Positions 28,539 to 32,947 of a DNA stretch of 64,000 nucleotides are shown one piece after another. Both the position numbers and the translations under genes were made by a program. The DNA is from Psychrobacter sp. LV10R520-6 (GTDB taxonomy: Bacteria; Pseudomonadota; Gammaproteobacteria; Pseudomonadales; Moraxellaceae). The notes under the pieces were generated by a model, which was not told the DNA's origin, ran no database searches, and saw nothing but the letters and a program-made list of their open reading frames with translations. The first letter of the stretch is position 1. Each line of letters begins with the position of its first letter. The stretch is from NCBI RefSeq assembly GCF_900182925.1, contig NZ_LT900024.1:1798001-1862000 (forward strand), given 5' to 3'.

Positions 28539-28901
28539 ATGCGTACAGACTCATTCCAACAGATATTGGAAGACTTAAACAGTTCATCATCAGACGTTGA
28601 GGCGTCGGCCCTAATTTCTAACGATGGCCTTATGATTGCCTCAGCACTTCCTTCCGGCATTGATGAAGACCGCGTTGGCGCGATGTCAGCTGCCCTAATA
28701 TCACTAGGGGACCGTGCTGGGCGTGAGCTGGCGCGCGGTAGTATTGATCGTATTATGATTCAAGGCGAAAAAGGCTATGTCATCATGACCTCATCAGGTG
28801 ATGAAGCGGTACTGACCATTATGGCAAAACCAAATGCTAAGCTTGGCTTGATATTCTTGGACATCAAGCGCGCCTCAGAAGCCCTAGCAAAACTTATCTA
28901 G
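28539..28901 (+). CDS. roadblock/LC7-domain protein
   Basis: 120 residues forming one roadblock/LC7 domain: helix FQQILEDLNS, strand ASALISNDGLMIAS, helix DRVGAMSAALISLGDRAGREL, strands IDRIMIQGEKGYVIMTS and AVLTIMAKP, and the final helix FLDIKRASEAL. Roadblock proteins dimerise and, as MglB-type partners, often act on small GTPases, but no MglA-like GTPase is visible in this window. It has no signal peptide or membrane segment. It is the first of five same-strand genes that may form a signalling module. Confidence 0.85.
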   Translation: MRTDSFQQILEDLNSSSSDVEASALISNDGLMIASALPSGIDEDRVGAMSAALISLGDRAGRELARGSIDRIMIQGEKGYVIMTSSGDEAVLTIMAKPNAKLGLIFLDIKRASEALAKLI

Positions 28902-29215
28902 TCAGTGACTCTATCAGCTGCTTTCTATAACTTGCTTACTAATATAGTTTGCTTGTTTTATAAGCATCTTAAATGAAAAACTATCATCTGTCTTATAAAG
29001 ATTAGTTGAGGCCATACATACTGTATGATTTTAATGAGCCAATACAGACTGACGGGTATTAAAGACCTTGCCCCTCAGTACATGTGAGTAAGCTAAGTTT
29101 GATGAGTAATAAACACTAGCAATATATTGCTTATATCGAAACATGTTCTTAGGTTTATGACTCTAATCTAGTTCTTCAATGTTAATGATTACAACGATAA
29201 ATAAAGGAGATTACT
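28902..29215. other. spacer before the PAS gene
   Basis: 314 bases without a recognisable gene or terminator. It ends in a strong AAAGGAG ribosome site for the PAS gene. A separate promoter for the PAS gene is likely but was not identified. Confidence 0.45.
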
Positions 29216-29710
29216 ATGGGTTCTCCACTCCCTGATGCCAATCAGCCAGATACGACAGCTGAGCAAGTCACATTGACTTATCAAGATGGAACTTCACGAA
29301 CTGTTTATGATACTGGTATCGAGCGGCCCTATCCAGACGGCAAGCTCATTGTCTCGCGTACCGATCTAGACGGTGTCCTCACCCATGTGAATGACGCTTT
29401 TATAGAAATCAGTGGTTATGATCGAGGTGAATTAATCGGTAAACAGCATTATATTTTACGCCATCCTGATATGCCAAAAGCCGCCTATAAAGACTTGTGG
29501 AATACCGCAGAGTCTGGCCAAAAATGGCATGGGTATGTCAAAAACTTGTGCAAAGATGGCAGTCATTATTGGGTCTATGCAACCGTCGTTCCTAATGTCC
29601 GTCGCGGCGAAACAGTTGGCTATACCTCGGTCCGCCGTAAGCCATCACGTAGCAAGATAGAGGCGGCTATTGCCCAGTATGCTGAAATGAAACAGAATGA
29701 GGAAGGTTAA
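29216..29710 (+). CDS. stand-alone Aer-type PAS sensor protein
   Basis: 164 residues with one PAS domain (about 35-150) closely resembling the N-terminal FAD-binding PAS of the aerotaxis receptor Aer: VSRTDLDGVLTHVNDAFIEISGY, then the RHPDMP motif, KDLWNTAESGQKWHGYVKN, and HYWVYATVVPN with GYTSVRRKPS. In Aer the RHPDMP region contacts FAD. Here no HAMP, membrane or methyl-accepting domain follows, so output must go through a partner. Strong ribosome site AAAGGAG. Only three bases separate it from the PhnD-like gene, implying co-translation. Confidence 0.85.
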   Translation: MGSPLPDANQPDTTAEQVTLTYQDGTSRTVYDTGIERPYPDGKLIVSRTDLDGVLTHVNDAFIEISGYDRGELIGKQHYILRHPDMPKAAYKDLWNTAESGQKWHGYVKNLCKDGSHYWVYATVVPNVRRGETVGYTSVRRKPSRSKIEAAIAQYAEMKQNEEG

Positions 29711-29713
29711 ATC

Positions 29714-30469
29714 ATGAGTGAACCAATGTATAACCTGTTAATCGCCCCTGATTTTTCGCCTGAGCGTTTTGCAGGCTGGCATATGTTCAACACCTTAATT
29801 CAAAAGCGTGCTGACATTCATATGCATTTAAACACGCCTACCTCTTCTGCTGAACAAGAAGAGCTGATCAAAGCCGGTAACGTGCATATTATTTATGCCA
29901 ATCCATTTGATGCCGCTGAATTAATACGTGAACAAGGCTATCGTGCTATCGCCCGTCCCATCGGAAAATCTGACGAGATGGTTATTGCCGCGTCTGCAAG
30001 TAGCGATATCAACAGCTTAGAAGATATTACTAATGGTGCTACCGTGGCAATGGCAGACAACCGTGACGTCAAACTTATCGGGCTAAGATTGCTTGAGGCC
30101 GTTGATTTAGAAGAAGCAGACTTAAACTGGGACGTGACTGAAAATTATCAAGCAGCCGCGAGAAAAATTATCAAGGGCGATGCTCAAGTAGCGTTCTTTT
30201 TAGCAGAAATATTCCATAGCTTTTCACGCTTGACTAAAACTCAGCTATCAGTACTGATAGAAAGTGATTTAGCGGATATCAGCCACGTACTCTTGATTAA
30301 AGAAAATGTTGCCGATGCGGTGGCTTTAACGGATGCGATTCTTGCTTTTCATAACGATGATGACGGTAAAGAAGCACTCGCTGAGCTGGGTATCCCGCAA
30401 GGCTTTGAGCCCATGAGCGAAGAAGATGCCGAATTTATGATAGATTTGATGGAAACCTTACTTGATTAG
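29714..30469 (+). CDS. cytoplasmic PhnD-like periplasmic-binding-fold protein
   Basis: 251 residues with the two-lobed type II binding fold of phosphate/phosphonate-binding PhnD proteins: YNLLIAPDFSPE, an alternate-lobe segment VHIIYANPFDAAELIREQGYRAIARP, SSDINSLEDITNGATVAMAD, and AARKIIKGDAQVAFFLAEI. Unlike a transport protein it lacks any signal peptide, lipobox or membrane segment, and no permease or ATPase is adjacent. It is therefore probably a cytoplasmic ligand sensor. It is tightly coupled to the PAS gene (3-base gap). The acidic C-terminus ends MIDLMETLLD. Ligand unknown. Confidence 0.72.
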   Translation: MSEPMYNLLIAPDFSPERFAGWHMFNTLIQKRADIHMHLNTPTSSAEQEELIKAGNVHIIYANPFDAAELIREQGYRAIARPIGKSDEMVIAASASSDINSLEDITNGATVAMADNRDVKLIGLRLLEAVDLEEADLNWDVTENYQAAARKIIKGDAQVAFFLAEIFHSFSRLTKTQLSVLIESDLADISHVLLIKENVADAVALTDAILAFHNDDDGKEALAELGIPQGFEPMSEEDAEFMIDLMETLLD

Positions 30470-30594
30470 CAATTTTAATTAGCATCTTGGCTACTATCTT
30501 GATGTGATGGACGCCTGCCCTCTTATTTTTTCAACCTGCTGACGCTGAAAGCTTTACAAACAGTACTGTTGACTATGACCTCAGAGATACTCTT

Positions 30595-31212
30595 ATGAGT
30601 GACTTAACGCTTATTAAAGAAAGTGAAATGGTAGCCCGCCGATTGTTTCGCTTATACTCGCGCAAAATATTTTTGGCGCCGAATAATCGTCATTTTCACG
30701 AACAACGTATTAATGCAGCATTGCTTCTCAATGAAAAAGAGCCTTTACAAGGTGCGGTAGCTGACTTCTTTTATGGCTGCTGGTATGACATTCCTTATGA
30801 CGTTACCAATATGTTTACTCGTATTCAAGGACGCTTGCACCCCCATGTTGAACAAGCTTTTCGCGACTGTATTGATAAGCTAGCTTACATTCAACACAGC
30901 AGTGTGCTTGCAACCCGTTGGAGCGTACTGGTAACACCCTCATTAAACGAGCAAACGCAGCGACTACGTATCAGCAGTGACGATGCTAAGGAAATTGCCA
31001 AAGATATCACAGCTGAGCTTATGATGGCGCGCGATAACGAGGACTGGAACACGATTGAGCAAATCGAAAATGAGTTTTTCTCCCACTGTGTTGCTCGCAA
31101 TGATCGTTTGGCCTTTTCTATCGTCTGGTTTCGCTTGGGCAAGAGTGACTGGCAGTTCGATGAGCGCTGGGATAATTGCCAGCAAAGCCTTGACCAAACT
31201 GTCGAAGCATAG
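30595..31212 (+). CDS. uncharacterised helical protein in the roadblock/PAS set
   Basis: 205 residues, not recognised as a named family. It is soluble, mostly predicted helical and rich in Trp/Arg/Glu. Notable stretches are ARRLFRLYSRKIFLAPNN, VADFFYGCWYDIPYDVTNMF and the C-terminal WFRLGKSDWQFDERWDNC. There is no signal peptide, membrane segment or nucleotide-binding motif. It begins 125 bases after the PhnD-like gene and ends 43 bases before the next gene, on the same strand and before one shared terminator. That suggests joint expression with the PAS and PhnD-like genes. Function unknown. Confidence 0.65.
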   Translation: MSDLTLIKESEMVARRLFRLYSRKIFLAPNNRHFHEQRINAALLLNEKEPLQGAVADFFYGCWYDIPYDVTNMFTRIQGRLHPHVEQAFRDCIDKLAYIQHSSVLATRWSVLVTPSLNEQTQRLRISSDDAKEIAKDITAELMMARDNEDWNTIEQIENEFFSHCVARNDRLAFSIVWFRLGKSDWQFDERWDNCQQSLDQTVEA

Positions 31213-31255
31213 ATGATAACTTTATTAAAGAAGTTCACTATAAAAATTTATATAA

Positions 31256-31879
31256 ATGGTAGCCGCTATGTCTTACTTAAATGTCGATAAAACCTATCTT
31301 ACCCTAACCCCAGCAGGTATCTTTGAAGCGTTTTCACAAAACGAACCCACTGATCAGCAGCTATCACTACAAGCATTACTGTCACACCACGAGACCATGC
31401 TTGCTGGTAATTGGTTGGAGACTTATTCTGATGAATGGCTAGAAGACTTTTTAGAACAAGGCTGGATTGAGAAGCTATCGATCTTTTTACCTGCTCCTAA
31501 CCTACCGTTGGATCAGTTTTTGCCTTATGTGGTGTCAAGCTTATCAGGTAACCGACGCGCTGCGATTGCTTCCGATGAAGGATTTTGCTTGGCGCGGATT
31601 GGCTATAGCCAAGAAGAAGCAGACATGCTGTGTGTCGCCGCCGCTGACTTCTCAGGCTTTATGTTGCGCCAAAAGCAACGCGGCTGGTCAGTAGAGAGCC
31701 AAGCGATTTCATTCTTTCAGCAAGTCGATTTACTGATTCCTGAAACCAGCTTTGTCTTTTTATGGATTGATGGGGCGGGCTACGCTATCATTATCGATGG
31801 TGAGCCACTAACCAATAATCGTGCCTTTGTTGAGCTGGTTTGGGCACTAAAAACATCCGGTCTGCGTTTTGCCAGTTAA
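31256..31879 (+). CDS. uncharacterised protein, possibly a divergent roadblock-like fold
   Basis: Up to 207 residues; a second ATG at 31268 (MSYLNVDK) is an equally plausible start and neither has a strong ribosome site. The N-terminal half is acidic and helical (HHETMLAGNWLETYSDEWLEDFL). The C-terminal half follows the order seen in the roadblock protein at 28539: strand AAIASDEGFCLAR, an Ala-rich helix EADMLCVAAADFSGFMLRQ, strands FVFLWIDGAGYAIII, and a final helix FVELVWALK. This similarity is by eye and needs structure comparison. It is last in the five-gene set and is followed by a terminator. Confidence 0.6.
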   Translation: MVAAMSYLNVDKTYLTLTPAGIFEAFSQNEPTDQQLSLQALLSHHETMLAGNWLETYSDEWLEDFLEQGWIEKLSIFLPAPNLPLDQFLPYVVSSLSGNRRAAIASDEGFCLARIGYSQEEADMLCVAAADFSGFMLRQKQRGWSVESQAISFFQQVDLLIPETSFVFLWIDGAGYAIIIDGEPLTNNRAFVELVWALKTSGLRFAS

Positions 31880-31904
31880 ATTAAGTTAAATCAGTTTTAT
31901 TGAT

Positions 31905-31940
31905 AAGTGCGTTTTGTTTCCTGTTCGGCGCACTTTTTTA
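31905..31940 (+). terminator. terminator after the roadblock/PAS set
   Basis: The stem AAGTGCG / CGCACTT with a 17-base loop is followed by a T run. The loop is longer than ideal. Confidence 0.65.
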
Positions 31941-32284
31941 CAAGCTTACCTTCACACTTCGCAATATAATATTTTTGCGCCTCATCTTCCTTAATCATCA
32001 TTTATTAGTATCCCCGTCTACCCGCTATCAGTAGCCCTTCTCCAAATAACAGTAATACCCCAATAATAAGAATACTCTGCCAAATAACAACAACTTACCT
32101 AGCGATCAGGCATACTATAACCAGTTTAATTATCAACACTTTCTTCTATCTACCTTTTTATACCGCCCTTGTTATTTACATTCTATTTTCTAGATAGTAT
32201 TACCCATTAGATAACATGACCTACCCCCTGATAGTGGCAACCTTTGCCAGATTTTGCACTCTTGCTCTTTTTTTAGGATGGTTT
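31941..32284. other. spacer before the methyltransferase
   Basis: About 340 bases, unusually poor in G on the plus strand, without a convincing gene. The methyltransferase frame could begin at 32216 inside it, which would add a hydrophobic N-terminus; see that entry. Confidence 0.4.
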
Positions 32285-32947
32285 ATGACTTCGCTTACTT
32301 CTGTGCGCGTGCGTTATCAAACGATTGAAATTGGCAATACCGATATTCATGTCTGCACTCTGCGCGATAACCAACAATTCAGCGACCCTGATGACGAGGC
32401 GCTCAACTTAGGTATTTGCTCGGCATCTTGGCCATTATTTGGCGTGATATGGCCGTCAAGCTTGGTGCTAGCCAACCATATGCTCGATTATGATATCGCT
32501 GGCAAGCGTATCCTAGAGGTCGGTTGCGGCATGGCATTATCTAGCCTACTGCTCAATAATCGACACGCAGATATCACAGCGACTGACTATCATCCGACCG
32601 TCGAGTACTTCCTTGATAGAAACACCTTATTGAATAGTAGTAAAGAGATTGCATTTGAGCGCTTAGATTGGGCGCAAGTGAACAGCGGTCTTGGTCGTTT
32701 TGATATGATTATCGGTAGCGATTTACTCTATGAAGACCAACATGTGTCTATATTGGCAGCCTTCATCGAACGTCATGCCAATCCAAACTGTGAAGTGATC
32801 GTCGTTGATCCCGGCCGTGGTCGCAAAAATAAACTGACCGCAAAAATGGCTGAGTTTGGCTTCAGCAGTCATCATATCAAACCGGAAGATACCACTTATT
32901 TAGATATGCCATTTAAAGGTCATATTTTGACGTTTTCGAGGGCGTAA
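32285..32947 (+). CDS. class I SAM-dependent methyltransferase (METTL21/NNT1-like)
   Basis: 220 residues. The SAM-binding glycine loop ILEVGCGMALSS (motif I) is followed by ITATDYHP and the post-motif FDMIIGSDLLYED with VIVVDPGRG. This is the pattern of lysine or small-molecule methyltransferases of the METTL21/nicotinamide N-methyltransferase-like group. The frame is open from an ATG at 32216, but the ATG at 32285 has AGGATGG upstream and avoids a hydrophobic leader, so it is preferred. It converges with the GNAT gene with only 16 bases between. Substrate unknown. Confidence 0.7.
   Translation: MTSLTSVRVRYQTIEIGNTDIHVCTLRDNQQFSDPDDEALNLGICSASWPLFGVIWPSSLVLANHMLDYDIAGKRILEVGCGMALSSLLLNNRHADITATDYHPTVEYFLDRNTLLNSSKEIAFERLDWAQVNSGLGRFDMIIGSDLLYEDQHVSILAAFIERHANPNCEVIVVDPGRGRKNKLTAKMAEFGFSSHHIKPEDTTYLDMPFKGHILTFSRA

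Follow-up and report, generated by a model that had tools for sequence, protein, structure and literature searches.

The stretch of DNA analysed here (the window) is 64,000 nucleotides (nt) long and comes from Psychrobacter sp. LV10R520-6 (contig NZ_LT900024.1, positions 1,798,001 to 1,862,000). It contains a module of five plus-strand genes, encoding an MglB-like roadblock/LC7 protein of 120 amino acids (aa) (RB, 28539..28901), an Aer-type PAS protein of 164 aa without output domain (PAS, 29216..29710), a cytoplasmic protein of 251 aa with a phosphonate-binding-type fold (PhnD, 29714..30469), an all-helical protein of 205 aa (P4, 30595..31212) and a protein of 203 aa predicted to combine an N-terminal winged-helix-like part with a C-terminal roadblock fold (P5, 31268..31879). 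Comparison with related genomes supports well the view that this module was reduced from an operon of seven genes, of the Group-3-type MglA/MglB system. Its Ras-like GTPase (G) was repeatedly lost, while the presumed regulators of this GTPase and the sensors were retained. The first-pass annotation, made from the window alone, proposed a redox sensor and a ligand sensor reporting through a roadblock “scaffold”, which is not supported in that form: the five genes are not the original arrangement, since relatives possess the seven-gene operon with the GTPase and a receiver-like protein (X), and by its history the scaffold is the MglB of an MglA system of Group-3 type. As to the function, we lean slightly towards a module descended from such an operon, in which a flavin redox sensor and a ligand sensor may act on a roadblock pair freed of MglA.

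Outside the genus of the window (g1) the operon comprises P4, X, G, P5, RB, PAS and PhnD. In the family of the window P4 was registered in 36 of 119 genomes, 19 of them belonging to g1, for which the same survey listed 26 genomes; the loci of all 36 were retrieved and their gene content was classified with hidden Markov models. All five genes are intact in the order RB-PAS-PhnD-P4-P5 in 18 of the 19 P4-bearing g1 genomes, so that the gene order, whose conservation the first-pass annotation had proposed to check, does not scatter. G and X are missing from the operon stretch in all 19. The order RB-PAS-PhnD-P4-X-G-P5 was found in other genera of the same family, namely in ten genomes of g10, one of g15 and three of the six of g7 (the contig of G100 starts within the operon), while two g7 genomes, G006 and G042, have the five-gene form. 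P4 and X of this family are homologous to their counterparts elsewhere (hhalign 97.1%, E-value (E) 5.7e-11, and 97.8%, E 1.2e-12, respectively).

Traits of Group 3 are seen in G. This protein exceeds the Pfam cut-off for ATP_bind_1, one of two tested members exceeds that for Ras, and as a profile it matches Rab, Sec4 and KRas chains. Of 15 aligned rows, 14 read DAR at G5 (L167 has DSR) and 14 lack a lysine at G4 (L144 keeps TKTD). According to PMC4316618 both features are traits of MglA Groups 2 and 3, and the Group 3 system consists of MglA, one or two MglB and an unknown protein whose N terminus is receiver-like and whose C terminus resembles a winged helix. RB, by Pfam, and P5, by its predicted fold, provide two proteins of MglB type, and X appears to fit the unknown protein in outline: its receiver matches are weak (best E 0.0017), and 3 of 22 members touch HTH_20 at E≤1. 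A role in defence was rejected, as none of the five window proteins had a PADLOC match; in the same comparison G of the relatives gave one weak match, to BrxF (E 0.001).

The family tree covers the 33 of 36 genomes having at least four of the five proteins (it omits L213, L214 and L223; the alignments also omit RB of L214). In it the two five-gene g7 genomes branch within the seven-gene members of g7 and away from g1. A joint loss of X and G on at least two occasions within the family is therefore well supported. Another variant, P4-X-P5-RB-PAS-PhnD, with G missing and X kept, was registered in six genomes of a different family (f37), which belong to the 15 genomes of the order described below. 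Since f37 lies outside the family of the window, this is a third loss of G. Four of these six genomes contain no GTPase of the G family elsewhere; one or three were found in the other two.

The complete genome of the window (G000) gave no match to G at E≤0.01, with all 19 candidates scored, and no match to X. Its three matches to the Arf model lie in frames of 492, 488 and 325 aa, and RB is its only Robl_LC7 match, P5 being too diverged for this model. Thus, the MglA-type partner, for which the first-pass annotation had suggested a genome-wide search, was not found in this genome. The searches with G and the Arf model reject a hidden MglA-type GTPase there, and the single Robl_LC7 match together with the lack of a GTPase of this family rejects one acting in trans from another roadblock operon. 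Among the 19 P4-bearing g1 genomes, nine are likewise without any GTPase of the G family.

Pfam recognised three of the five products, confirming the domain assignments of the first-pass annotation: Robl_LC7 in RB (1.3e-17), PAS_3 in PAS (8.8e-18) and Phosphonate-bd in PhnD (4.6e-39); P4 and P5 had no significant match. The RB profile matches roadblock and MglB structures; it was observed that the Thorarchaeota roadblock structure 7f8m (5.1e-31) and the Asgard archaeon Roadblock3 9jue (1.3e-24) stand far ahead of Myxococcus MglB (5e-4). For P5 the predicted model (predicted local distance difference test 86.4, predicted template modelling score 0.82) places the C-terminal elements in the order a-b-b-a-b-b-b-a, and at E≤0.001 it finds 38 chains in PDB, every one of them from a roadblock protein, MglB or Ragulator/p14. 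The P5 profile finds CvnB5 at 1.8e-4, and Robl_LC7 is touched at E≤1 by 28 of 44 members of the P5 alignment. On this model the C-terminal part of P5 has a roadblock fold, and its likeness to the roadblock protein, recognised earlier from the order of strands and helices, is borne out by fold and homologues. P4 remains the helical protein it was taken for. Its model is all-alpha, TPR_19 hits at E≤1 occur in 13 of 32 members of its family, and comparison by hhalign relates it to the TPR-like proteins heading the seven-gene operon; a known enzyme or fold was rejected, because neither Pfam nor PDB (E≤0.001) gave a match. In automatically chosen frames P4 is 207–254 aa long in 21 scored G-bearing loci versus 127–173 aa in 37 G-less ones (L178, with 223 aa on a short contig, was assigned to neither group), and the extra part may be needed only together with G; P4 of the window measures 205 aa.

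PAS is closest to Aer (PAS structure 8dik, E 3.8e-35), is identical to the PAS segment of E. coli Aer at 55 of 117 positions and carries RHPDMP. Contacts of Aer with flavin adenine dinucleotide (FAD) include H53, R57, W70, N85, R115 and M69 (PMC9668731). PAS of the window keeps the first five, which are also kept across homologues (H53 in 80/81, R57 in 81/81, W70 in 81/81, N85 in 80/81 and R115 in 80/80), while the position of M69 is mostly L. Judging by these residues, PAS likely binds FAD, in line with its initial description as an Aer-type domain without output. The lack of a signal peptide and of transporter partners, noted at first glance for PhnD, is also sustained: its open frame of 252 aa for a 251-aa product leaves no room for an export signal, which rejects an undetected one, and the other four genes have no transporter match in Pfam. 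In 58 of 80 homologues no more than 15 residues of open frame precede the first strand. The best PDB matches of PhnD are PtxB (1.4e-5) and ArrX (2.1e-5), and since in the alignment a Ser/Thr stretch of PtxB faces an acidic stretch of PhnD, the ligand is probably different from that of PtxB.

Based on these data we favour descent of the module from a Group-3-type MglA/MglB operon joined to a cytoplasmic sensor pair. PAS would sense the flavin redox state and PhnD a small cytoplasmic solute, and both would form one input unit, because they travel together even alone. This input may act on RB, which would pair either with P5 or with a second copy of itself. In the ancestor the same input would tune G, with X and P4 as partners. 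Upon deletion of G and X in the genus of the window, with RB, P5, the TPR-like P4 and the sensor pair retained, the GTPase step would be gone, and RB, P5 and P4 may act directly on their target as a GTPase-independent roadblock scaffold. Tentatively, and with somewhat less confidence than in the descent and the freed roadblock pair, we extend this to a general statement: having become independent of MglA on three or more occasions, MglB-type proteins may on their own form the output platform of two paired cytoplasmic sensors, one for flavin redox state and one of solute-binding-protein type, and PAS-PhnD may be a new and widespread two-protein input module.

The most serious competitor, though in our opinion an unlikely one, supposes that the switch was replaced, so that the roadblock pair regulates in trans a nucleoside triphosphatase (NTPase) of another family, for instance a MinD/ParA-like, PilB/PilT-like or multidomain GTPase-type protein. 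Roadblock proteins are known as regulators of NTPases (PMC4316618), the genome encodes multidomain GTPases as well as pilus ATPases, and RB was hardly altered after the loss of G: 94 of 120 columns are invariant in 18 g1 genomes versus 91 of 120 in 13 GTPase-bearing genomes, with only two near-fixed differences between these sets. However, no gene of the operon takes the place of G, no candidate has been identified, and f37 and g7 have also lost G with no visible replacement in the operon.

Linkage of the genes was estimated in wider samples. Strong matches of RB (E≤1e-40) and PhnD (E≤1e-39) occur in the same 15 of 244 genomes of the order, on the same contig and within about 1.5 kb, which makes the linkage greater than expected by chance; 11 further genomes have weak RB matches only. 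In the class sample PhnD was found at E≤1e-20 in 19 of 369 genomes. A set of 80 loci was taken as the best 80 of 437 stretches of the species collection by similarity to one PhnD protein, and therefore represents a biased sample (alignments A4, A5, A7 and A8 used 43, 31, 22 and 14 of the homologues found there). PAS lies directly upstream of PhnD in all 80, with the proximal ATG of PhnD overlapping the PAS stop by 4 nt in 15; a gene fusion of the two was sought and found in none. RB is present in 65 loci, P5 in 63, X in 62, P4 in 60 and same-strand G in 24, while G is absent from 35 loci that have P5 and extend 4.5 kb or more upstream; several of the 15 loci without RB are on contigs too short to tell. 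G-bearing loci include Thiothrix, Methylotuvimicrobium, Crenothrix and Sphaerotilus, and G-less ones Marinobacterium, Amphritea, Nitrincola and Neptuniibacter. PAS-PhnD is thus the constant core of the module. One could suspect that this pair and the RB/P4/P5 genes are functionally separate and merely neighbours, given that at least six loci with long flanks (L116, L118, L119, L159, L163 and L185, each with more than 8.4 kb of upstream DNA) carry it unaccompanied and that 314 nt separate RB from PAS in the window. This is improbable: RB lies within the module in 65 of 80 loci, L172 and L180 keep RB-PAS-PhnD without P5, and the genes remain clustered in no fewer than three arrangements, P4-P5-RB-X-G-PAS-PhnD (L144), P4-P5-RB-PAS-PhnD-X (L178) and the rotated one of the window’s family.

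PAS-PhnD without RB was also observed on contigs of metagenome-assembled genomes from Anaerolineae/Chloroflexota (L116, L118, L119, L168, L176 and L177), with 52–58% identity to the gammaproteobacterial query, which reflects either transfer or a binning error. Second PhnD-like copies in G497:C67 and G522 have frames of 405 and 480 aa and are possibly fusions.

Selection was estimated by ratios of nonsynonymous to synonymous substitutions (dN/dS; Nei-Gojobori medians for pairs with a proportion of synonymous differences pS<0.6). In g1 they amount to 0.013 for RB (71 of 153 pairs), 0.054 for PAS (45 of 153), 0.050 for PhnD (33 of 153), 0.025 for P4 (21 of 171) and 0.031 for P5 (31 of 171). In GTPase-bearing g10 and g15 the values are 0.059 (27 of 45), 0.104 (7 of 45), 0.056 (6 of 55), 0.116 (5 of 55) and 0.050 (4 of 55). 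For none of the five genes is the ratio in g1 higher than in these relatives. There is no sign of relaxed constraint, and the five genes are under purifying selection in most genomes. A decaying remnant of an MglA system with no present function, which could be suspected from one g1 genome retaining only P4-P5, from the eroding locus of G033 and from seven listed g1 genomes without the module, is the least credible alternative, because all five genes are intact in 18 of 19 P4-bearing g1 genomes with dN/dS of 0.013–0.054.

Several observations weigh against the interpretation we prefer. Seven of the 26 listed g1 genomes have neither P4 nor RB, G023 has P4-P5 only, and in G033 (g7) there is a stop in RB, with PAS and PhnD not found in the stretch read; the module is, therefore, dispensable. 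The dN/dS comparison included no control genes and had few usable pairs in the GTPase-bearing set. The 38 best matches of P5 have TM-scores by target length of 0.47–0.66, and direct comparison of the RB and P5 profiles is weak (probability 6.6%, E 0.0055). Ten of the 19 P4-bearing g1 genomes hold a more distant GTPase elsewhere; among five of them inspected, three have it in a BLUF-type operon (L235–L237) and two beside another roadblock gene (L232 and L233). Finally, the curated TIGR01420 cut-off, passed by 31 of 32 genomes, revealed no association of PilT with the module in g1 (19/19 P4-bearing versus 6/7 P4-less genomes).

The separate GTPases have surroundings of their own. In L235:3883-6118, as well as in L236 and L237, all of the window’s genus, an operon encodes a 119-aa protein, a BLUF sensor, a Ras-like GTPase and a roadblock protein. 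The 119-aa protein is roadblock-like by eye and has no Pfam match, and with the blue-light sensor (PF04940 4.4e-21, scored for L235 only) a GTPase/roadblock pair again has a flavin sensor at its side. Relatives (L231, L232, L233, L234 and L241) also have a separate GTPase next to a roadblock-type gene, with an X-like protein beside it, by eye, in L231, L234 and L241; three genomes with such a GTPase (G102, G088 and G006) lack the module’s own. In L128:2117-3037, on the minus strand, a 307-aa GTPase-roadblock fusion (Ras 7.2e-9, Robl_LC7 3.2e-6) adjoins the PAS-PhnD pair.

As a target of the module one can propose type IV pili or cell polarity, pili being our best guess by analogy. In Myxococcus MglA acts with a TPR protein on pili (PMC7519303), and in Snodgrassella mutations of the Group-3 mglB in the mgl operon alter pilus-linked behaviour (PMC11112851). 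In our own comparisons the link to pili is weak. Only with a cut chosen afterwards (best E <1e-140) was PilT found in 19/19 P4-bearing versus 3/7 P4-less g1 genomes (p 0.002). In a wider set 28/28 PhnD-bearing versus 41/52 PhnD-less genomes had it (p 0.007, with no correction for kinship or genome size). Among the 28, the PhnD of G377, G522 and G629 is more distant and lies in a longer frame; the 52 were taken from the start of the class sample, skipping G357, G359 and G369. In G006, G033, G042 and G022, four of the six g7 genomes, pilT-pilU and the module are roughly 8–13 kb apart.

In the window the five plus-strand frames lie where the first-pass annotation put them, including the 3-nt gap between PAS and PhnD. 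The other gaps are 314 nt (RB-PAS), 125 nt (PhnD-P4) and 43 nt (P4-P5), the last becoming 55 nt with the P5 start at 31268, which is as possible as the upstream ATG at 31256. Given the 314-nt gap RB may be transcribed separately from PAS. A pattern scan found 17 promoter-like sites versus 15.0 expected, that is, no excess above chance. The single terminator said to end all five genes is present on the plus strand as a hairpin with a U run (31905..31940, 9-bp stem, 13-nt loop), but its statistics are weak, as 29 of 200 shuffled sequences fold equally well (z −1.1); a terminator after P5 is, on this basis, plausible but weak. The pattern scan, which took loops of 3–8 nt only, did not list it. 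Downstream, on the same strand, there is a methyltransferase-like gene (window 32216-32947, PF10294 6.4e-13).

Roadblock proteins have so far been seen chiefly as regulators of small GTPases, and lineages that kept these regulators and deleted the GTPase represent a natural experiment on roadblock proteins by themselves. Their strong conservation in this state suggests that such regulators are able to function in the absence of the switch assigned to them. For MglA/MglB-type systems of beta- and gammaproteobacteria PAS-PhnD is, in turn, a defined candidate input that can be purified and would combine flavin redox state with a ligand; the consulted parts of the Group 3 papers cited here name no input. 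Deletion tests can be direct, as the module is of small size and contains the sole roadblock gene that Pfam recognises in the genome.

The part of the open-access literature surveyed contains no description of the module or of the PAS-PhnD pair, and known systems resemble it only in part. With Aer the PAS protein shares FAD-contact residues and the RHPDMP motif, but in 164 aa with PAS matches only it has neither HAMP nor chemoreceptor part and is paired with PhnD instead. PhnD has by Pfam the same fold as the PhnD/PtxB phosphonate-phosphite binding proteins, with a weak sequence match to PtxB (1.4e-5), but lacks their signal peptide, and the module has no transporter gene. With Group 3 MglA systems of beta- and gammaproteobacteria (PMC4316618, PMC11112851) it shares two roadblock proteins and, in relatives, also the DAR-motif GTPase and the receiver-like protein, both of which the window’s genome lacks; P4, PAS and PhnD are not among the components described in the consulted part of PMC4316618. 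Myxococcus MglC (PMC7949163) and orphan MglB proteins (PMC4316618) are likewise roadblock proteins uncoupled from an MglA gene, but Myxococcus retains MglA in its genome, while no such GTPase was found in that of the window. Loss of Group 2 mglA from conservons has already been reported (PMC4316618). Actinobacterial conservons combine the kinase CvnA, CvnB, CvnC and the GTPase CvnD, and among the five genes there is no match to a kinase or GTPase: where conservons use a histidine kinase, the module has PAS-PhnD.

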